Of a DNA stretch of 64,000 nt, positions 6,150 through 64,000 are shown in pieces (position 1 is the first letter of the stretch; each line of letters starts with the position of its first letter). Below the pieces are notes generated by a model that was not told where the DNA came from, did not search any database, and was given only the letters and a program-made list of their open reading frames with translations. The position numbers were made by a program, and so were the translations under genes. The stretch comes from Cliona cf. orientalis (Eukaryota > Porifera > Demospongiae > Clionaida > Clionaidae): NCBI GenBank assembly GCA_963930775.1, contig OZ005696.1, positions 5,704,001 to 5,768,000 on the forward strand, written 5' to 3'.

Positions 6150-6604
6150 TTTAATGCTACCTTAAGATGGACGGGATATAGATGTGCTGAATCAGCATTA
6201 CGAGCCCCTCCCACTTCAGGAGACAAGACGAGCCACTCCCACTTTAGGATTACAGAGCTCGGTAATCTCATCGTATACTAGAATTTCAAGATTTTTTCTT
6301 GCCAGCGAAGCAAGCGAATTTTCGTGACTCTGTAATCGACGCATTCCACGTCTCAGTGAAGTTCTTTCGCGTTGACCTCTTAGATTGTCTATATCCTTTT
6401 TAATACCATTTCACGCCAAGTGTATTATTAAAGTCAGGAAGGTAAATGAGTCACTTGAGCAAGTGATATGCCACTTATGTAATCGGGGGGTTATTTTTTG
6501 TGCAGTGTTTAAATTTTTTATGGACTTCCTAATGTGTCTATTGCTTGGGGATCTCTCCTATTAAAAGATGTAATTTTTAAAATTTACCTTGTTAGCACTA
6601 TTAC
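6150..6604. other. Intergenic stretch, nothing recognised
   Basis: Contains short direct copies of GAGCCACTCCCACTT near 6200-6245 and an AT-rich tail. No coding or structural signal was found. Confidence 0.4.
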
Positions 6605-7204
6605 TAGCCTCGAACCCAGGTTCACTTTCGGGGGGAGGGGAAAGAGAGCCTGGTAGACACTGTCTCGCAAAGTTTATGGAGCAATTTGTAGTATAATACG
6701 CTGGACACTATCGCTACCACACGGTTGGACATGTACCGGGACAAGGTATACTAAGCAGCCGAAGTCAATGAAGTTTCAAGACTCGATATTTCTAAAGACT
6801 GTTGTATGAAAGACTTCATTCGCTCTATCTCACTTTAAGCAAACCTTCACGAGCCTCAAAGACCTGACAAAGTCCCTTCGTTGCCGTTGGACAACCGCCT
6901 TTATCGACAGTCCCGGTTGTTCACCAAAAAACTTTCACTAAAAGTGAGTAGCTAGAACTCCTTGTAGCTTCTTTATTCTTCCTCTATCAATGTTGCTCAC
7001 TTGTGACAGCTAGACTTGTTACGAACTGCGGCCAACAAAGACGATTTTTAGGCATACTTGTGGGGTCAAGGTTCACGTTTATGGACTGATAAATGGACAA
7101 AATTACGAATTTCCAGGATTTCTGGGAATTTTGGCGCGTGCGCAGACAGTGTGTACCAGGCTCTCTTTTCCCTCCCCACAAAAGTGAGCCTGGGTTCGAG
7201 GCTA
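6605..7204. mobile_element. Inverted-repeat MITE with TAGCCTCGAACCCAGG ends
   Basis: The left 60 bp (TAGCCTCGAACCCAGGTTCA, the G-run, GGAAAGAGAGCCTGGTA, CACTGTCT) recur as reverse complement at about 7145-7204 with a few changes. The 600-bp unit has no coding capacity. The TAGCCTCG and CGAGGCTA ends resemble those of the tiny hairpins at 13915-13981 and 25861-25918, so these may share a mobilising enzyme. Confidence 0.75.
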
Positions 7205-7525
7205 GGTACAATACGCTGGCCCTATAATTGGATATACTTGCAAATTAATTAGTCTTGATGATCCATAATACAGGCTGACTCATATTAAAAGGGACATCTA
7301 CCTTATTGATGATCTGTACGCTAGCCGCGGTGGAGTGGAGTGATAGCGAGAGATAAACATCTGCGGTTTTGTTCTTTCTAGACTTATGAATATCGTTGGT
7401 CTGCTGGTGGGTCTATCTGTCGTCCAGGCTCCGCCCAACCTTCTCCCTGACCAATCAGATTGTTATCTGATCAGCCACGCCCTCCTATTTTTACTTTTCA
7501 TCAACGATAATATTAATATCAGCTG
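7205..7525 (+). promoter_or_regulatory. Likely 5' region of the 2A/death-domain gene
   Basis: Sequence between a MITE and the start codon at 7526. An in-frame TAA (7514-7516) just upstream of the ATG fixes the start of the coding region. No TATA box or other motif can be named with confidence. Confidence 0.3.
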
Positions 7526-10500
7526 ATGTGTGATTCGTGTGTTGTGTGGTGGGCGTGGTTTGGATCACTCCTGCTCGGAACATCCTGGTTGGTCATTGCC
7601 CTGTGTCTCATCATGTCTGGAGATGTTGAGCTCAACCCCGGACCTATCGACCAAGGTTGGTCTCTTAATAATGCCTGCCATCAGTGCCGTTCAATAATGA
7701 TATTGATATTAATTTTATAGAAGATCAAGAGATTCTCTCTAAAGTGGATGGCACAACTTTGGGTATGTAATTATGTGATGATATTTTTTATGAAGAATCG
7801 AGTGATTTTAAGTAGCTGCTGCATAGGTAGCTGAACGTTTCGGGAGGTATAATTTTTGTTATTTTCGTGAATGAGCACAGTATGAAAATCAGACCCCTAA
7901 ATTATTACCCCGCACACATGCACAAGGGGTAAAGCAATCGGTTTGTCTGTCTGTCATCGTTGTCGGCACTAAAATTGCCAGATCTCGAGTTCTAGGCGTC
8001 TGTGCGTGCTATAAGTACAGTCGATCGGTAGACATAGGTGAAAAACTGGTTTGTACGTGCTTCAAATTTCTCAAAAAGGCTTACTAGTGGTACAAATCGT
8101 CCATTTTCTGTTCAGCATGCCTGTGGTTTATCGACCACACCCACTCTTTTAGCATAACAGTATGCGGATGCGACTGCGCATGCTCAAGCACAGTGTTGAA
8201 AAGGGTCGTCACGTCATGAAACAGCTACATGTATGCCTCAGAGTGCTACGCTACAGTGGCTACAGAGCGTGCGGGGTATGTGCTCTACAGAGCTCTAGTT
8301 GCTATTGTACTACGTATAGTGAGTACGTCAGTGAAAATTAAACCAGCAAGTCATATAAAGATCAAATACATCCGCGAAAATTAAATCCCTCGTGCTATAT
8401 ATATATGGCATAAATATTGTGTGAGCTGATGAACACACTTGTTGACAATATTATCATATTTATTGTTTTTTCTTACCAGAGGAGGATGACTGGAACATAG
8501 TGATTGATGAGTGTAGCTCAGTGTCTGCTAAGTGGGAGCAGGTCAGTGGGTTCCTTGGACTCCGTCTCTCCATCATCGACACCATCAAACAGAACCATCC
8601 TGGAGACAACGTTGGCTGTTGGAATGATGCCCTCAAGCACTGGATCAAACACAACTACAACACAAGCAAGTTCCATGAGCCATCGTGGAGGTCTCTGCTC
8701 AAAGCCATCACTAGGGTCGACAGGGCACTCTTCAAGAAATTAGCTGCCGAGCACCAAAGTAAGCATAAAACTGAGTTCAATTTATAGTACATTTTTGAAG
8801 AGAAAATTTTCATTTATAGCTCTTGCAGTGAGTGTAAGTATTGAAGTGGATCATGTGGAGAGAGACATGGTGAGGTCGAAGGTGTCAACAAGTGATATCC
8901 AAGAGTCTAAAGGTTAGCTATGCAATAACTCAGCAGTTACTTTCATCAATGTGTACTGTCATTTATAGATAGCAGTAATGCTGTAAAGTCACCTGATGCT
9001 GGTACACAGCCTGCCAACAGTGGAGGGGCTACAGTGGAACACCAAGGTGTGTATTGTGCTTATGAATTTCTTACAAACTAACTGTATTACATGTGCATGA
9101 ATCTACATGTAAAGGCTTGTATGATCTGCCCAATCTACTATTATTTGTATCATCTTGAAGTTCGTGTTTTATCATCTCAGAACCAGTAACTGAGTCAGAC
9201 CCAGCAGTACCTTCTATATCTGTTCAACAGAAGGAGCAGCTTTGTGAAAGACGATGCTTTGAGTCCGAGCAAATCATGTACAAATTTCAGAAGCTTTTCA
9301 CGGACACAAAACGGTCACTACGAGGGAAAAAAGTTGCAGTTGATGAGCTAGTTGGTCATTTGGAGTGCTTAGGATCAATCAAACCAACATATGTAGATAT
9401 TGGTCGATCTCCACTGCGAAGCCAGCTACCAGGACTAGCTGACGCTAAGACTGTCGATGCTGTCATGTCCGTTGTCAAGGACTACTGTTCATTCTTCAAC
9501 TACCACATGGTAGAGCGCATCATTGATGAATTCGGGACGAAGCAAGACAAGGAGAACATGGCCAGCTACAAAGAGGACTTCACCAAGTATGCCGAGTGCT
9601 GCATTACATAGTGTCCTCCAGAGGTTGGGAAAATGAGTGAGGAGGGGTGTGCTAACGTATTCGTAACACTGGATGATTCGTTCGACAATTGCGCCATCAG
9701 TCACCTCAATGTATTCATTGGCAACTTGCGGAAGATTCTGAAGATTCCTTCTACTGTTGCACTCAGGCTATGCCGCGTTAATCTCGGAAGCATCAAGCTG
9801 ATCTTTCAAATCCCTCTTTCTGTCCAACAAGCCATCTTTCCTCTCTCTAGTGAACAGGAAGCAGAGTTATCCAGCCTAGGTGTCGTACAGCTCTACTGTG
9901 GGGACTACCAGTTCACTCCACAACAGACTGAGGTAAAGTTAACAGACCCTAGTGGATGAATTTGTTGAGTAGCTCCATTTTTCTGTGTTTCCAGGAAGTG
10001 GCAGAGGAGCCAGCGACTGATGGAGACTCAGACCACACTGATAGTGGGGCAACTGTCAACAGCAAAAGCGCATGTGAGTTACCAGTGATTACATGTTGTA
10101 CTCTGCATGGATTGTCCATAGTTTTCAATGTATTGAAGATCTGGGAATGGGCCTGGGAATGAACCTTCATTCCGATTCCACAATCATGTACAATAATAAT
10201 ATAGTATGGTATGTAGCATTATAACCACTGGATGTACAAACCATTGCCCGGAGCATAGCTACCTTTAATATCCCTCCCCCCTGCATCTTTCAAATTAGAA
10301 AATGATAAACATCTATTTATCCTTTAATTGGGTGAGCCTAAATGATACATCCATACATCTAGCTGGCAATATAATATATGACCGTCCACGACCATATTGT
10401 GCTGGATATCAATCTGAGATACAGGCCTATTTAGTTGCCCAAGGTGATAATTATCATTTTTCACTTTTTGGCATAGATCGATAGTGGAATCATTCCTCTA

Positions 10501-13019
10501 CACAAAAATCTGCTTCGTAGCTTCTAGTCGGCCGTGTAGCTAACATTGACCGTCCATGATACGGAGCCGTTGCCATAGTTGCAGGTAGGCAAGTATGGCA
10601 GCTGCACAGAAAAAGCTCTCCAGACACTTCTTTCTTCGATTTTGTGTACTAACAATAATTTATAGACACGCTTATCTTTTGGTTCTTTTCCATCGAAACG
10701 TTGGCTGCTGCTTTCTTTCCAACGTTTTGGCCGCCATCTGGCTCTTTGACTTAGTGGGCGTGGCCACGTACTTTGCATTAACAGCGAGTATACGGACTTC
10801 TGCGTGCAACGTACGTAGCATTGTGCTTGCTGCATATTTTTAATACGGGCGATCCGGGTACATTTTGGTTCATATCTCCATGACTACACGGGCTAGAGAC
10901 TTCCAATTTGCAGGAGCAAAAGTTCAAAGGTTGTACTTGGTAATGGTGGCCTTAACTAAAAATCGGTTATCAGCGCAATATGGTTGGTTTTGTCATGGAA
11001 GGTCACATAATATATACGAATTGATCATCACATGAAATAGCTTAGTATGGCTCTACAGACATGTGATATTGCAAAATACCCTAAACTCTGGTTATTAAGT
11101 GCACCCTGCTATTAAGCACATTATTTATTAAGCGCATGCTCTCTTCTCGTCACAAGCTATTGTTTAAGCGCATATGCTTAATAGGCGTGGCATTCTATGA
11201 ACCTGATCGTGACCTCAACAACATGTTGGAGTCTGGAGATATGATGGCCACGAATAATGCTGTCATGCAAGAAGATCGAGTCTTCAGACAAAATTTATTC
11301 GCCAGCACACGTTATCTTGAGCAGCAGCTGTAAACGCTAAAGAACTCAATCAATCGAGCCAGCTAGCACTAGTGCTAGCGGGCCTCGTATCCATTACATG
11401 GCCAAACGTTTGTGGGCGTGGTTATGTGCCATGTAAGCGCATGCTGCTGTTCCGTTTACCACTATAAGCGCATGCGTTTATTAACCAGACTCAGAGTATA
11501 TGGTAGTTTGTATATTGCATATTCAATACCCCATAATAATTATTTTAGTGAGTGGTATGCTGTTTTTGGGTGGGTGTTTCAGAGAAACTAAACTTTACTT
11601 GGCCTATCAAACTATAAACAGACTAGTGTCATTCAGGGCCTGTATATGAGCCTAAGTAGCTATATAGCGGATGTGAAAAAATATTATTAGCTGAGTGCAG
11701 ACTTGAGCTCCAAGATTAGTTTCTCTGACACGCCCACCCATAAAGCACCAAATTATGGGGCATTAGAATATGCAACTACAGGTAATGCTGAGTTGTCATC
11801 GATGGCTGCTGGACTGGCTGTGGGAAAACCTGGGGATACTGCCTCCATCAGTGCTGACTCAGCACTAGGGAGGAGCAGTGTTATCACTGGCACTACAGCC
11901 GGAATGACAAGATTCAGTGAGGTGAGTCAGATCACTGACTGCTACTGGTCTGGGCTGTTCTGATGTTCCATATTCCATTCCCAGGATAATATTATGGTGG
12001 GCAGAGAATTAGGTGATCTTGGAATGGGAATGGGACATGGTGCATCGATTGAAAATGAACTATTTCAAGCATCAGGCAAGGGAGACCTGAAGAAAGTAAA
12101 AGAACTTGTTGAGGAGAAGCAATTTGATCCACTGCAGAAAGAAGGAAAGTTTGGAGCGAATGCTCTTCACTACTCAGCTCATTTTGGACAACTTGGAGTG
12201 CTGAGATATTTCATCGAAGAAAGGGGATGTAGTCCAGCAAGTCAAGACAATCGAGCAATGACACCTCTTCATTATGCAGCAGTTGGCAAACATCTTGATA
12301 TAGTCCACTATTTGGTTGCTGAGCAGCAGATGGATCCACTATGTTGTGCTGACAATGGCTCTACTCCACTTCATGCTGCTTCTCAGGCTGGGGACATTAA
12401 TGTCGTGAGATATCTAGTGAATGAACTAAACAAGTTTCTTTCACTCACGGACATAGTCACTAGTAGAGGCTTTAATGGAAAAGCTTCTGTCCACAGCGCT
12501 GCTTTGAATGGACACTTGGAAATAGTTAGGTTCTTCATCGCTGAACTAAAGTGCGATCCTACTATTGCTCTACCTGTCGAGTATCAGGGTAGGACTACTG
12601 GAGTTGGAGGTAGAATTGCTCTTCATCATGCTGCTCAAGGAGGACATCTGCACATCATCAAATACTTAGTAGAACAGTGTAATTGTAATCCATCGCACTT
12701 GGACAGTGAGGGAGTAACACCGCTGCACATAGCAGCTCAGTGTGGTCATCTTGAGGTAGTGCAGTACCTCACCCTGGAGCAGCACTGTGACCCACTGTGT
12801 ACTAACAAGAATAGTAATACTCCTCTTCATGTAGCCGCCTTTGATGGCCACCTTCAACTGGTTAGGTTCTTCATTGAAGTGCTCCACTGTCCTCCCGACG
12901 TTAGAGGATGGTTCAATGTGACACCACTGGACGCTGCATGTAGCCAAGCCATGTTGTACAATATTTGGAGTCCATTCGTCCTAAACTTCAGTGAATTAAT
13001 TTGTTGTGTTCATTTATAA
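7526..13019 (+). CDS. 2A-leader, death-domain and ankyrin-repeat protein (in-frame stop in this copy)
   Basis: Hand-built exons: 7526-7655, 7721-7762, 8480-8758, 8829-8912, 8969-9046, 9181-9932, 9995-10073, 11701-11921, 11985-13019. All junctions keep phase (2700 coding bases). Residues 1-39 are a tryptophan- and leucine-rich hydrophobic leader ending in GDVELNPG, followed by P40: a canonical 2A motif. Exon 3 encodes a death-domain fold (KWEQVSGFLGLRLSIIDTIK, later PSWRSLLKAI). Exon 6 carries a conserved middle region of unknown type, but an in-frame TAG lies at 9609-9611 (codon 348), after which the frame stays open for 107 codons to the donor. The last exons encode about eight ankyrin repeats (TPLHYAAVGKHLDIVHYLV type). 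Joining the ankyrin exons across the 1.6-kb intron is inferred from phase only. By family it is a cell-death or innate-immune adaptor/receptor-like protein. It may be a pseudogene, a readthrough gene or a truncated one. Confidence 0.7.
7613..7645 (+). other. 2A-like ribosome-skipping motif (GDVELNPG/P)
   Basis: Encodes MSGDVELNPGP, matching the D(V/I)ExNPG/P consensus at every fixed position, in frame with the start at 7526 and immediately after a hydrophobic stretch. Established knowledge: at such motifs the ribosome releases the upstream peptide after the glycine and continues with the proline. Comparable cellular 2A sequences are known at the N termini of NLR-type proteins and in non-LTR retrotransposons of sea urchins and other invertebrates. 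Confidence 0.9.
7905..8297 (+). repeat. Dispersed palindrome-ended repeat, copy 2, in an intron
   Basis: Starts with the palindrome TTACCCC-GCACACATGC-AAGGGGTAA, followed by GCAATCGGTTTGTCTGTCTG, and ends with a block (GCTACAGTGGCTACAGAGC, then GTGCTCTACAGAGCTCT) shared with 4421-4797 (inverted) and 19590-19660. It lies inside intron 2 of the 2A/death-domain gene. Confidence 0.7.
11076..11500 (+). mobile_element. Inverted-repeat element inside the 1.6-kb intron, copy 1
   Basis: Ends read ATACCCTAAACTCTGGTTAT and, on the other strand, TATACTCTGAGTCTGGTTAA. The interior repeats TTAAGCGCATGC motifs near both ends. The whole unit recurs inverted at 60111-60535, including the internal AAACGTTTGTGGGCGTGGTT and GCATTCTATGAACCTGA blocks. 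A 65-codon open frame inside (11136-11333) is part of the repeat and is only partly kept in the other copy, so it is not called a gene. Confidence 0.75.
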
Positions 13020-26908: not shown

Positions 26909-47792
<20,884 letters not shown>

Positions 47793-52793: not shown

Positions 52794-55700
52794 TCATGAA
52801 CTACATGCCGACCTGACTCCTGCTGCAAGGTCATCAAGGTTACAGTCCTCCAGTAGTTCAATGAGTTTGCACCATGAGCAAGGTCTAACTCCATTCCCAA
52901 TGAGCCAGTGTTGGAACATGTCCCTACAGCATGCCTTAGGGTCATTGGGGTGGGTGGCCTTGATCAGTCTCAGCTTTGAGCCACTGCTGTCGAACTCTAA
53001 CAGGTCCCCGAGACTCTGCCACAGAGGGGCCACTGATTCAATGACCTTGATCTTCTGTCCTTCAACTGTTCTCAGCACCGACAGCTTTCCAAGGGTTGGA
53101 GTAGCATCTGTGTGTATTAGGGAGAATGGAAGGGAGGAATATGAGAGAATAATATTATTTCCAAGCTAACTGAATCATACACAGTAGATCTACATGTAAA
53201 TACCCAGGGTTAATTTCATAATATTTTGATCAAGAGGGGGCAAATACAAATCTTAGGGGGAGCACACCCCCCCACCCCCCCGTAAACCCTGCATACCCAT
53301 GATATTATACTTACCCATTGCAAGGCGTATTGATGGTGAAGGTGCAGTACTCTGAGAGGTGCTTTGAGTGGAATCTGGAGAGAAATGACAATTCAAGTTA
53401 ATCACAATTTAGCAGCTTCACTTAGATAACTGGGCATTAGAGAGAATCATCCAGGACTCACCGCACAGTTTCACAGCCTTATCTCTAACTTCCAGCTTAC
53501 TATTAGCAGTTTTGAGCATTGAACAGTAGTACAGCACTACAAAACTGGGAATATCTCTAAAGTGCTCCAAAACAGGCACCCTTTCTCGGAGAGCTGCACA
53601 GTTTCTTGGTTCTAGTTAGAGGTGACTCTGTGCATTTCTATGCAGCACCTACTTTATGGATATTACCGTATACTGTATTACACAATACTACATGTCCATT
53701 GAATTAGCTACTATAACGCTAGTTGTCAAAGTTTATCCATACACTACTGCATCGATGTCCTTCCATGAACAGTGAAACAAGTAATATTATTCTTCATGCT
53801 GACTAAGGTCACTGTCACCAACTAGTACTGGTGAATGATCACGCTTGTGCTCTTGGAAAACTTTGAGAAACATTCTAGTAATAGCTACTTTGCAGCTCTT
53901 AGGTACTGCCCTAACTTAGGCACCAGCTTACCATTTTTTGGTTATGCTTCTATAGCTTAGTGTCACAAATAATTATTAAAACACATTTCCTTTTTCTGCT
54001 TAGTGTGTAACTTCCCACACAAACAATAAAATTATGCACATAGACTGAGAACAGACCAGTGGAAAGGTAAACGTTCCCGTTCAAGATAGATCAGCATGAA
54101 TCCTGCTCATGGTTAACAATCTGAGGATATAATGAATGCACAGGAGTACAGAACCCTCACCGCTACATGCATGCATATAATATAGCTGGAGATGTATCGC
54201 ATGGCTCACTGTGTATACTATTAAATGGCAGGAGTATTGAACTACATACCCTGCACCTGAACAGGGTTGTGGTACTACTAAACTAGTACATACCCTGCAC
54301 CTAAACAGGGTTCTGGAACTACATGTAGCTATTTTCCTTAGAGTCAGTGATCTAAGAGTTGGCGGAAGGCACCTGGCTCTGCCACTATATATACTGAAAC
54401 CCTCTGTGACATACTTCAACTGAATTATGCACTTGAGAGCCACTGCCTGTTTACACTGTCACTGGATTGACAACTGACCAGCAGAGCACAGAATGACAAT
54501 CAGTCATGTAGTTGAGGTAGGTGCCATGTAAACACAGACTGGCAAGTTGCAACAGCTGCACACTACTAAACCACTGGGCAGGACTTAACATGACCACTCT
54601 TCCTTTATGCTACGTATACCTAAAATGCGTACTTTCTCTATGACGACCCTTACCATTTAGCAAAGGAGGGTTGCAACGGACGGACGGACGGACAGACGGA
54701 CAAAAGTCGCCAAACAACTGCAGTAACCCTCCGCCTACGCTTTGCGGCGAGGGTTAATGAGGGATCTGTATCCACATGCAGAAGCAAGGACACAGGCAAT
54801 GGTGGTCAACGTACGAGCATGGTTTAATCGCATTTATGCATAGAATTGAAGCTTAGTGTTGATAAAAAGGCAATAATAATTAATATAATATTAATATAAA
54901 GATCGATTAAATAAATACCTATACATACTAGCCACAAACGTGGTGAGCCTACAACAGCGACAATCGAGGTGGTTCCAATAGCGGATGGCAAAAGCAAGTT
55001 CAAGATATATTATGCTAACAGCAAGAGTAAGACTACTAACTGATAAAAAAGTCAGCTATGCGTGCACACACTGGTGTTGAATGTACACAGGGGCAATGAC
55101 ATCAGGCCTACATACATGTATAGCGGACCTGAGGGTCTCCCACAGGAGAAATTTACCTTTCCACTTGCCTGTATACACATACAGCATACATACATGCCAT
55201 TAAAATGTATATATATAGCATAGTAATGCTATTACTTTTAGTATCCCTTCCTAGCCAGATCCGGTGCTGCTCAGTGAAATCGCTACATACTGATGCAGGA
55301 TGAAGGGTACACGTCAAAAGCCCACTACTTGAAATAGTAGCAGGGTGTAGGTCACTAGGGAGATGCTTTGAGCAAGGAAAAGCTACTGCTGGGATTGAAT
55401 TGTTGTAGTTCAGTTTGTGTGAAGTCTTCTGTATCATAGAAAGAATCGTCTCACGAATACTTGGACAAAGCTTTTCACGAATCTGTTCAGCTTTAGCGAT
55501 GTCCATATCGTCAGGAAAGTCGATGCTCACATGAAAGAATGTGGTGAATGAATCAGTTATTGTAATAGCTCCAGGATCATCTCCTGGAAGCCTAAACTGG
55601 ACTTGGTTGCGTGAAACTTGGACTGGGCGATTATTTTCTGTCATAAGCTCCCACTTGGCTTCAGTGATGAGAGAAGCAAGGAGGCAACAGTAGACTCCAA

Positions 55701-57314
55701 GCTTAGGACCATTTGGACCAAAGTAGAAGTGAAGTGTTGCAGTGATTGATGAGGTATCGGAGTGAGGTAAGGGACGGGGCACATGTACGCGGAGAAGACA
55801 GGGGACGATGAATTTTCCTTCACTAACTTCAGCAATTACACGCTGGTACTTCAAAACCATGACTAGCTGCTGTTGCATGAATAAACCTGGCACGTAATGG
55901 GAGTTAAACTGCGAAAGAAGGTCAAGTGTAACGAACCCATATGCTTTGAATTCCTGAAACTCCTTGATATCCATAGAAACAGATAGCTCATGCACTGGTT
56001 TGGATTGCATAGAGAGACTGAACTCAACAAGCTCAGTGATCTTGTCAAGGATGGTCTGGGCATCAATGAAAACCACTTCTGGAAGGACCTCTTCATAATG
56101 GAAAATGAGCTTGAGACCATGGAGGTACTTCAGGGCTGCTTCAAACGAGTCCTTTGTGAAATGATAAGCAGCTGCTTCTCTAAAGCATTCATCTTTGCTC
56201 AGAATTGCTTTGTGCTGATACTTTGCCAGTCGTAAAAAGGCATTTTCCAAGGCAAAGTACTGAAGGGGAATCCTTTGTTGTGGTAGCTTATGTAATTCCT
56301 TTATCATCTTCTGCCGCACATACCCTATCATCTTGCGATCGATATCTTCTGGTGTTTTGACATTTACACCAAACAGAAGCTCTTCATTGGAATGCTTATA
56401 GTACAGAACACTTTGCTTCAAATCAGGAGGAATGATTTCTTGAAGTTTTCGATTCTTTTCTTCTCTGCTTTCATCCAGACATTGCTCCTCACAATCTTTG
56501 TGAGTTCCGATGAACACAAGCTTCGGGCATGTGTCTCGACTACAAGTTGACTGAAGGACCCTCATGCAATGACGGAAGGTCTGAAGATGTGTATAAGGAG
56601 ATGGGAATGGCTCTCCTACCGGCTTGCCATTGCTGTAATAGTCTACCATGGGGTAGCTATCCAGCCTTTCATTCAATTTCACTGTGAGTACACCAAATGT
56701 TGTATTCTTCACAAAGAGGGGTAGCACTTCGTGGAACATTGGTTGTCCCCCTGAGTCCTTCATGTCAATTAGATCTTTGTCAATGAGATCTTCCGATCGC
56801 TTTGGCACCAACTGCATTCGACGAAGCAGTTCTCTCTCGAAACCACTGGGATGGGACTGAGGTGACTCCTGCTTCTTTTCTGGGATGAAATCTGGATCTT
56901 CCTGATTGGTAATGTGTGATTCAACCTCCTCCTTAGACGATACTTGAGTACTAGCTGGAGCACTTTTTGGTATTTCTTCATGTTGCCTGGGATGAATTGT
57001 AGGGAGAGAAGTCGTTGGTTGCTGTGATTGTATCAACTTCACTGTTGTGCTGAGCATATCAGAATACTGGTCATCTTGGATTCGAATGAAATAAATTCCC
57101 TCCACCCCTATCTTGCATTGAGCTATAGTTCTCACTGTTCGTTTAGCGCATGGCGTGCTCTGTCTTACAGATGGAGGGTCTTCCCGAAGGAAAGCATGAA
57201 GAGTGTGGGTCTTTCCTGACCCACCAGGACCCAGGAAAAAGACACTACCATTTCGAATCATTAGCGTTCCTCCCTTCATGGCAATGTCAAAGTTGTGCTG
57301 TGTTTTTTCAGCCA
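52794..57314 (-). CDS. ROC-COR GTPase with C-terminal death domain (5' end missing)
   Basis: Four exons: 57314-55236, 53611-53462, 53374-53315, 53107-52794, phases consistent, at least 867 residues. The large exon begins just after a TTTTGCAG acceptor with one base owed by an unseen upstream exon, so the N terminus is incomplete or the upstream exon supplies only the start A. P-loop GPGGSGKT near residue 29-36; switch II-type DSGGQPMF near 190; GTHKD near 269. These mark a ROC (Ras-of-complex) domain, with a charged insert at about 95-165. A COR region follows (YFALENAFLRLA; LPEVVFIDAQTILDKI). The last exon encodes a death domain (SVAPLWQSLGDLLEF ... PCSWCKLIELLEDC) and the stop. By family such ROCO-death-domain proteins act in stress or death signalling. 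The paralogous pseudogene lies 1.3 kb downstream. Confidence 0.85.
54655..54760 (-). repeat. Palindrome repeat with GGAC microsatellite
   Basis: GGAC units (54678-54705), then AAACAACTGCAGTAACCCTC and CGAGGGTT at 54749-54757. Read on the minus strand this is AACCCTCG, a palindrome remnant, TACTGCAGTTGTTT and GTCC-type repeats, the same order as 37455-37525. It lies in the intron between the COR exon and the death-domain exons. Confidence 0.6.
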
Positions 57315-57379
57315 CTGCAAAACATAGAGATTCATGAGATAGTGTATGGATATGCAGATATTTAGCTACAACAAATAAG

Positions 57380-57865
57380 TATGATTATTGTCACAATTAT
57401 GGGATGCATGAGCTATAATAACAGTACATGCTCAGAGAAAATCTAAACAGCATCATCTCCCTAGCTGCCTATCAAGACTTCCCGTTAATCCAGTGCACAC
57501 GCGCAGATGAAAGCAACACAAACTTTGAACCAGGTCCTATTATTACGTAGGCCATGCCCCTCACCGCAGGCCAATAAGAAGTTTGCAATGGCGACATTCT
57601 CACTCTGCTCGAACGTTGAATCTACCACCAAACTATTAACAGGCATGACGCAGAATACACCTTGCCTCTGGCTTTGTTCGAGGCTCATTGGCCTGCTGAG
57701 CAGGCCTCTTAAACTGTGCAGCGATTCGTGCCGTTCATTCAAAACTACATCCCAATGGCTACCCTCATTTGACATGTGCACATAGCACTACATTTATGAG
57801 CCTTCTGAAGTTGTGGTAGAGTGCAACTATTGTGCCCTTAAGGACGACAGGGACTGCTATAAGAA
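57380..57865. repeat. Segmental duplication, copy 1 (5' flank of the ROC-COR gene)
   Basis: Aligns by eye with 58775-59265 over almost 480 bp in direct orientation: AGATGAAAGCA, AACTTTGAACC, GAATCTACCACCA, the palindrome GGCCTGCTGAGCAGGCC, and GAGCCTTCTGAA/GAGTCTTCTGAA occur in the same order. It may contain the promoter or first exon of the ROC-COR gene; no first exon could be fixed. Confidence 0.65.
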
Positions 57866-62332: not shown

Positions 62333-64000
62333 ATGCCAAAGGTTAAAAAGAACAGAAGACATCTGTTTGACAGGAGGAAAAATGACACCAGGAAAAAACC
62401 AGCAAAGAAAGCATACCTCCACCTCCTATCCCATTGAACAATCCCACTACTGATCTACAACAGCCTAATGAGGGAGTACTGCAAAGGAATCACCCCAATT
62501 CGATGCTTTCGTTGCTTTATGACCAAGTTAAGGGGCAGAATATTGACGAGTGGACCACCATCATCTCTGAAAGCTCACTGCAACTTTTCACTGTACTGAA
62601 GGAAGCTAAGTGTCAGCCTAGGATAGAACGTTCTGTGACAATTTGTTCAGATCTCTCATGGCATGTTCATGTGTGTGGTCAGCGACTGAATCCTGCTGAC
62701 TCAGAAGTATTTTCTGACCTATCGCAATGTGTCACTGATATACGCTCCCTGTTGTCTATACTGCAACAAGTTTCATCTGCTCTGATATGTGCCGGAAACC
62801 CTGATCCTAGTTTTATAGATCTTATTGAACGTGAAGGGGGAAGCTTTAGAGGGGAGAATAAGGAGATTGTAGCAACACTTGATGACACATGCAATGTAAC
62901 AGTGAGTGGATGCAGATATGAACGGACGATCAGAACGCGGGAGTGTGACCTCTTATATCGGCCTTGCAGTACTGGTGAAAAGCGAGTGAGATGCCAAGGA
63001 TGCAGTCGTTTCAGGGCACATTTACGAGTAAAAAGAAGCAGGCGTAACAACTCTGATCCCTCATCATCAACAGCAGACAACAACCATACAAGTTACAATT
63101 ATTTGAACAAGGACGAATTGGTGGAGCGATTGAAGAATGTACAGAAGTCTAGGAAGGTGATCAGAAGAAAGTATAAGAGATTGGCAAAGAAAGTGATTAA
63201 AAAGGAAGGAGTAAAGATCAGTGAAGAAGATGAAAGTGATATACAGATGTTGATAGACGAGGTTACACCAGAGATCAGAACGAACTACGGCCAAGATTCT
63301 CCACAGTATGTCCTTTGGCAGGAGCAGAAGAAGTACAACTCACTTCAGAACAAGCGTCAGATGCGTTGGCACCCACTTGTTATTCGGTTTGCACTAAATC
63401 TCTTCTATTCCTCCAGAGTAGCTTATCGAAATGATACAAGCTCTGGCTTTCTGGCTCTACCTTCAGAACGAACACTGAGGGACTACACTCATTGGTGTTC
63501 TGCTCACAGTGGTGTGCAGTTCGAGTATATTGAGCAAGCGAAGAAGGTCATGTCTCAGGAAGGTGTGAGTGAGAATGAGAGACAGTTTACACTACTGTTT
63601 GACGAGATGAAAGTGAAGGGTGGACTAGTGTTCCGAAAAAGCACAGGGCGACTTGTTGGATTCTGTGACCTTGGTCAAGCCAATCACGAGATTGATTGTC
63701 TCTTTTCATCTCCTTGTGAAGGCAGTGGTGGTGATCCAACTCCTCAGTTAGCTAAAAACATGCTAGCATTTATGATCAGGCCAATCTTCCGTCCATCGCT
63801 TGCTTTCATGATAGGTGCATTTCCCACTATTCAGTTGACAGGCTACAAGCTTTTTCCGATGGTCTGGAATGTCATTGAATGCCTTGAGCTCAGTGATCTA
63901 CCAGTTGTTGCAGTGACAGCAGATGGTGCTTCTCATAATCGGCATTTTTTTCACCTCTGCTGCTTGAGCGAAGATGGAAAAAATCACCCATTCCGTTCGT
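62333..64000 (+). CDS. P-element/THAP9-like transposase, frameshifted near the start, cut by window end
   Basis: The ATG at 62333 opens a lysine/arginine-rich start (MPKVKKNRRHLF). Near the A6 run at 62393-62398 the good frame changes, and the second frame then stays open from 62386 to the window end (over 530 codons). One missing A would join them, so this is a single-base deletion or a read error; otherwise translation could begin at ATG 62503. A cysteine-rich patch (CDLLYRPC, VRCQGCSRFRAH) and a basic coiled region precede the core. The core has LLFDEMKVKGGLVFRKSTG, RLVGFCDLG and VAVTADGASHNRHFF, which match the RNase H-like catalytic part of the P-element/THAP9 group. The first catalytic Asp is likely the D in LLFDEM. 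No C2CH THAP finger is seen. Role: DNA cut-and-paste transposition, or a domesticated derivative. Confidence 0.75.

Follow-up and report, generated by a model that had tools for sequence, protein, structure and literature searches.

The window, i.e., the whole stretch of 64,000 nucleotides that was analyzed (C8:5704001-5768000), carries a gene that was modeled with nine exons spanning 7526-13019, with AG/GT at every border. The features of this gene and of its 5′ flank are as follows, with the basis of each in brackets:

6422..7303, no strand assigned: 882-bp insertion in an otherwise conserved 5′ flank (comparison with four paralogues)
7526..7655, + strand: exon 1, a 39-residue hydrophobic leader ending in NPG, then Pro40, I-D-Q, and a phase-1 donor (sequence)
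7622..7645, + strand: 2A/StopGo core octapeptide DVELNPG/P (sequence, genome-wide motif counts)
7721..7762, + strand: exon 2, a 14-residue linker, EDQEILSKVDGTTL, phase 1 to phase 1 (AG/GT conserved in the paralogues L068, L069, and L070)
8480..8758, + strand: exon 3, death domain (Pfam Death, PF00531 matches of relatives, PDB profile match to FADD)
8829..8912, + strand: exon 4, linker (splice model, AG/GT)
8969..9046, + strand: exon 5, linker (splice model, AG/GT)
9181..9932, + strand: exon 6, a domain of ~130 residues without a Pfam match (X), then TRADD-like_N (Pfam)
9609..9611, + strand: in-frame TAG within exon 6 (codon 348 of 873, 5′ of TRADD-N and ankyrin)
9995..10073, + strand: exon 7, linker (splice model, AG/GT)
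11782..11921, + strand: exon 8, linker (splice model, AG/GT)
11985..13019, + strand: exon 9, ankyrin repeats (Pfam Ank_2, 4.3e-53)

Elsewhere in the window are a WD40-repeat exon (45791-46336, + strand), a 743-residue open reading frame (ORF) with a P-loop-like GPGGSGKT that gave no Pfam match at E ≤ 0.001 (55156-57384, − strand), and a transposase-like ORF (62386-63999, + strand; TNP-like RNase H, 58.5 bits).

The frame of exon 1 begins with the ATG at 7526-7528 and reads MCDSCVVWWAWFGSLLLGTSWLVIALCLIMSG/DVELNPG/P, with Gly39 ending at 7642 and Pro40 at 7643-7645. In-frame TAA codons lie four and six codons 5′ of this ATG, and an initial annotation of this DNA was right to describe an ATG with an in-frame stop upstream and a hydrophobic 39-residue leader that ends in GDVELNPG and is followed by Pro. 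The phase-correct join from the leader exon to the death-domain exon that was proposed there also holds in the sequence model, in which exons 1, 2, and 3 (7526-7655, 7721-7762, and 8480-8758) connect in frame with AG/GT borders. The term "signal-like" for the leader is only partly apt: Arg and Lys are absent ahead of the hydrophobic stretch, and the hydropathy peak (2.16 in a 19-residue span) is as much in keeping with a membrane helix as with a cleavable signal. The hexapeptide preceding the core is CLIMSG in the window and RLIMSG in 11 paralogues on contig C18; the changes L4S, A19T, and R27C are private to the window leader.

The Pfam Death model scored 18.8 bits on the window exon alone, below its cut-off of 22.6. 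PF00531 was matched at E ≤ 0.1 by 20 of 21 aligned relatives of the death exon (best 1.1e-6), and the best PDB matches of the profile of this exon family were FADD death domains, with E = 0.002. A single-sequence AlphaFold model of the death exon reached a pLDDT of 59, and Foldseek with that model returned no match at E ≤ 0.001. The TRADD-like_N domain in exon 6 (PF20694, 24.4 bits against a cut-off of 23.7), which had gone unmentioned in the initial annotation, is encoded 3′ of the TAG at 9609-9611. This TAG, at which L068 and L070 read glutamine, is the sole internal stop of the window model, and it interrupts the frame across the window exons; the nearest relatives of exon 6 are mostly open for ~260-340 residues, with exceptions. 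Since the TAG precedes both TRADD-N and ankyrin, the window locus as assembled cannot yield the one death-domain/ankyrin protein that had been envisaged for two compartments. The death-domain/ankyrin gene described there stands insofar as the ankyrin exon is part of the gene model, but this exon lies after the stop.

The last ~20 residues of the ankyrin exon differ, when compared by eye, between the window and L068. The 882-bp insertion ends 222 bp 5′ of the ATG, its flanks adjoining within ~10 bp in all four paralogues compared, and it contains a terminal-inverted-repeat element (6604-7205) with 62-nt arms that are 92% complementary. Stretches similar to this element were also observed in L015 and L026. 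Moreover, the window copy is isolated on C8, all 11 of its close relatives being on C18. On account of the TAG, the altered C-terminus, and the insertion, the window copy is read as a decaying outlier, a dispersed duplicate of the C18 array that is probably non-functional. These same features, together with its isolation on C8, make it somewhat likely that the window gene is a plain pseudogene whose own 2A element is functionless even though the family is functional. However, every other splice site and the rest of the frame are intact, the leader and the death exon have open frames from which a truncated leader-Death-X product could conceivably be made, and the TAG may be an assembly error or a polymorphism.

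Among the paralogues, L069 on C18, which has one exon more than the window gene, has an open frame of 887 codons that extends from leader to ankyrin over the DNA examined. With the window exons as the model, exon 4 of L068 shows a 4-nt insertion and its ankyrin exon contains a stop, and in L070 both exon 8 and the ankyrin exon have changes of frame; the death exon paired with L030 carries a TGA. Disabling changes were thus present, as modeled, in three of the four translated window-type genes (the window, L068, and L070, with L069 open), suggesting that part of the window-type subfamily is decaying; as modeled, some of its copies are open and others broken. A search with residues 1-480 of the L069 product in a collection of 5.8 billion proteins returned two relatives, P0001 and P0002, among 7995 scored candidates, and NPG is absent from both. 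P0001 has the same exon-6 domains and the N-terminus MGNICSK, which we take to resemble an N-myristoylation site and which would be a possible alternative membrane tether.

The octapeptide DVELNPGP has 62 coding sites in the 216.8-Mb genome, 32 on the forward and 30 on the reverse strand, versus 0 for a reversed-pattern control, and a wider pattern, G-D-(V/I/M)-E-x-NPGP, has 152, again versus 0. For the wider motif, 100 of the 152 positions were used, which reach as far as contig C11; on later contigs the 2A sites considered are DVELNPGP sites only. A phase-1 GT follows the Pro codon by 1-13 nt in 58 of 60 DVELNPGP loci (all but L066 and L067; the 60 include the window, and two places on C13 were left out), although the loci are related, and hence the 58 donors are not independent events, and several of them fit the consensus poorly.

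The motif is tied to the death exon in position and strand. Using 150 scored relatives of the window death exon, a relative was found within 3 kb downstream on the same strand at 44 of the 62 DVELNPGP sites, versus one upstream and none on the other strand. Within 10 kb the counts were 46 downstream, 23 upstream, and 0 on the opposite strand, the upstream ones being due to tandem arrays, and an exon-6 relative within 10 kb at eight more sites brings the total to 54 of 62 (65 of 144 exon-6 matches used). For the 74 other 2A sites listed, the 3 kb downstream contain a death relative in 17 cases and the 3 kb upstream in none. At the highest similarity the pairing is exact: the 12 window-type leaders and the 12 top death-exon matches (≥90% identity) are the same 12 loci, and each of the 11 near-identical leaders on C18 has its own partner among the 11 nearest death exons. 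The arrangement of 2A and death exon is far from chance, and the claim that a genuine-looking 2A/StopGo element stands at the N-terminus of death-domain genes is supported.

Viewed from the death exons, 47 of the 98 closest have a 2A motif within 3 kb upstream and 51 have none, among the 136 2A matches listed, which means that the 2A module is not needed by every death-exon relative; on C10, among the same matches, the fraction is 0 of 28. A shorter set of 2A sites led to identical counts. The 98 closest death exons thus include 28 on C10, of which 26 form an array of death-exon relatives at 7.5-8.8 Mb. Two close pairs of 2A motifs were also observed: GDVERNPGP (501) and GDVEMNPGP (871) in L073, which are 370 bp apart and in different frames, and a pair on the other strand at C10:773803 and C10:774007.

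The origin of the leader was approached by homology. Using the 43-residue product of the window exon as a protein query of the genome, 73 matches at E ≤ 10 were obtained, of which the 35 with E below 1e-4 are all at DVELNPGP sites. Beyond the 11 window-type loci, the leader matches on C13, C18, C6, and C1 align only from window residues 5-8, and their frame runs far upstream. The 227-residue product of one such locus, L028, finds 35 loci, comprising 24 with a long ORF and the 11 window-type loci on C18; the latter match it only from residue 194 or 195 to 227, and the window leader at 196-227. The upstream ORFs of L020 and L010 find 13 and 4 loci, respectively. In most of the 41 long-ORF loci the upstream ORF spans ~220-270 codons, and hydropathy peaks of membrane-helix size, one to three each, were present in all seven upstream ORFs measured, for which Pfam returned no family over a cut-off. 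A frameshift or stop appears to damage three long-ORF loci in the L028 search and one in the L020 search. By these alignments, the window-type leader is a homologue of the C-terminal part of a longer upstream ORF with predicted membrane helices.

D(V/I)ExNPGP stands in frame at the end of the long ORF in 41 of 41 loci (37 DVEL, 1 DIEL, 3 DVES), with the reservation that the queries themselves end in a 2A motif and so favor motif-bearing matches. In the three DVES loci, however, at most residues 1-78 were matched, so that the 2A motif, in frame 402 bases further on, lies outside the match. We take the retention of 2A in all 41 loci as the strongest evidence for selection on the motif. The pooled Nei-Gojobori dN/dS of the upstream ORFs, calculated without the last 30 codons, is below 1 in four groups, with point estimates of 0.30 (13 sequences), 0.44 (7), 0.41 (8), and 0.62 (4); of 34 loci with >150 upstream residues, 32 were grouped and 2 left out.

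How the short leader arose is hinted at by the DNA upstream of 6 of the 11 C18 paralogues, which shows a 34-41% match, with in-frame stops, to residues 24-72 of the membrane-type ORF (E 3e-4 to 0.013 in a 15-kb database); this match was not seen upstream of the window copy. An internal deletion in a membrane-type ORF is offered as a suggestion only.

The start codons of the window type allow another reading. In all 12 window-type loci the first ATG (7526 in the window) has C at −3 and the in-frame Met30 (7613) has A at −3, and given the weak context of the former and the presence of the latter, the leader might be bypassed. Ribosomes that scan past the first ATG and start at Met30 would then make a protein that is cytosolic and extended by 11 residues, and the 2A-like string would be incidental. 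However, a start at Met30 would strip the upstream context that 2A needs and leave the conservation of 2A unexplained, and the membrane-type loci retain 2A throughout. Leaky scanning is considered very unlikely.

A mobile source for the leader is slightly less improbable, yet still unlikely. The dispersed repeat family of L071, in the same genome, begins with a 39-residue hydrophobic leader ending in GDIEVNPGP, and 2A is known in non-LTR retrotransposons (PMC4981915), so the leader-2A exon could have been captured from such an element and persist by hitchhiking. The family has 40 matches, 35 on C1 (mostly 18-36 Mb) and 5 on C2, and in L071 (911-1450) the leader is followed by a helix-turn-helix-like stretch below the Pfam cut-offs. 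However, searches with three membrane-type ORFs and with the L071 ORF gave no cross-matches, dN/dS is below 1 in the upstream ORFs, and both the exon phase and the position before Death exons are fixed. A search of viral contigs with one narrow degenerate version of I-M-S-G-D-V-E-L-N-P-G-P gave 0 matches, which says nothing on origin.

Some 2A leaders precede NACHT genes in the same genome. A NACHT domain lies within 6 kb downstream on the same strand at 9 of the 136 listed 2A sites, versus 0 upstream and 0 on the opposite strand (103 of 104 NACHT places used, the one dropped being a second piece of the same domain). The leader search added 11 sites of its own, 7 of which also have NACHT within 6 kb downstream; six of the seven are on C5, where the leader match is weak and the sites are absent from the C5 wider-motif matches, suggesting an altered or degenerate motif. 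L074 reads, in order, short leader, GDIESNPGP, death-like exon, and NACHT, and L072 leader, GDVEENPGP, death-like exon, and NACHT; tblastn recognized the death-like exons of both, with 26-28% identity and E values from 1e-7 to 3e-9, and the whole L074 ORF gave no Pfam match.

These genes bear on a reading in which selection maintains the short leader as a signal with two functions, so that the extent of skipping sets the compartment of the Death protein, as in sea urchin NLRs. The precedent invoked by the initial annotation is sound: the leaders of SpNLR2A proteins act in this manner in reporter assays (PMC4981915). Short hydrophobic leaders before 2A also recur here in several subfamilies (the window type; L024-L026 and L056; L074), in addition to the NACHT genes. 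However, 41 related loci have a long upstream ORF rather than a leader of signal length, and the window leader has no Arg or Lys before its hydrophobic stretch. A pure signal switch is considered rather doubtful. For the family as a whole, a separation of membrane and Death proteins is a better fit than a switch of signal sequence by itself, because the leader is homologous to the end of a long ORF that is found at 41 loci.

The reading that we favor, and consider likely, is that a StopGo leader splits an upstream membrane protein from a Death/X/TRADD-N/ankyrin protein in a defense-type gene family, with the 2A/StopGo element of exon 1 closing the initial coding exon throughout this large family. 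In the usual layout, once the gene is transcribed and spliced as modeled, the ribosome would first make an upstream protein of ~220-270 residues with predicted membrane helices; at NPG/P the Gly-Pro bond would not be formed, the upstream protein would be released, and the ribosome would continue with a separate, Pro-started protein containing the Death, X, TRADD-N, and ankyrin domains. One mRNA would thus yield, in near-equal amounts, a membrane protein together with an adaptor or sensor in the cytosol, with a presumed immune role. Short-leader genes would give a small hydrophobic peptide and the same kind of Death protein, and by analogy with the sea urchin any unskipped product may be directed to the ER or to membranes, with the skipped one left in the cytosol. 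At the moment of skipping, a 39-residue leader should still sit mostly in the ribosome tunnel, so the skip would precede any signal-recognition step in short-leader genes, whereas in long-ORF genes the helices would have emerged already.

Several observations are counted against the favored reading. The window-subfamily donors are weak (GTTGGT, three of five consensus positions; two of five in L041), and the dN/dS of the leader is 0.47, a point estimate over 12 close copies. The private change R27C falls in the six residues preceding the core, where substitutions can lower StopGo activity. Also weighing on this side are the L at the free core position, the weak context of the first ATG, the decay of part of the window-type subfamily, and the 51 death exons with no listed 2A within 3 kb upstream. 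A more ambitious extension, for which the balance tips slightly to the negative, is that StopGo serves as an animal gene-splitting device at dozens of loci, the short leaders being reduced descendants in which an operon-like gene for two proteins became a targeting switch.

If a StopGo element is indeed fixed at one exon phase in many defense-type genes, it would be a routine gene architecture adopted by an animal lineage. The series from long membrane ORF to short leader to no 2A found (the C10 relatives) would amount to a natural experiment, its question being why a Death-domain adaptor is made together with, and then cut from, a membrane protein. With the NACHT genes, 2A before NLR-type genes would be documented in a second lineage of animals, one that is presumably distant from sea urchins.

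The mechanism is known in kind, as are N-terminal 2A signals, and the architecture is a new variation on it: StopGo here apparently splits a membrane protein from a Death/TRADD-N/ankyrin protein. No description of 2A with the Death/TRADD-N/ankyrin combination was found in the open-licence literature, in agreement with the initial annotation, which knew of no described case for a death-domain/ankyrin protein. StopGo has mostly been described from viruses, with few cellular cases (PMC12846837), and the same source cites Rao et al. 2025 as a survey across viral and cellular proteomes. It also reports that an L-rich upstream class of StopGo sequences is active in vitro, in reticulocyte lysate (PMC12846837). 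The likeness to this viral class lies in the core octapeptide and an L-rich hexapeptide ending in SG before the D (PMC12846837): compared by eye, the hexapeptides RLIMSG, RLILSG, and LLLLSG resemble it, the window CLIMSG being a private variant. However, the viral class prefers S at the free core position, where the family has L, which counts against the likeness (PMC12846837). Unlike viral 2A, the predicted element here is cellular, belongs to the intron-containing genes of a multigene family, and closes their initial coding exon.

In Amphimedon, a lineage-specific expansion of TRADD-N proteins combines one or more Death-like domains with TRADD-N and often ankyrin (Kaur et al. 2021, PMC8195603), which is the same domain order as in the window family; the terms "NPGP", "signal peptide", and "recoding" are absent from the main text of that paper. 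The expansion of Death, TRADD-N, and NLR genes here suggests that the source animal is probably a sponge. The closest parallel is SpNLR2A of Strongylocentrotus purpuratus, in which NLRs carry N-terminal 2A-like signal sequences (Roulston et al. 2016, PMC4981915). Both systems share the N-terminal position, a hydrophobic leader, a D(V/I)ExNPGP core, and a Death domain downstream (PMC4981915), and NACHT genes with 2A leaders occur here too (L074 and L072). In contrast, the leader has 39 residues here and 26 in the sea urchin, and SpNLR2A is Death-NACHT-LRR whereas the window family is Death-X-TRADD-N-ankyrin (PMC4981915). A further difference is the long ORF of membrane type that precedes the 2A in 41 of the relatives here.
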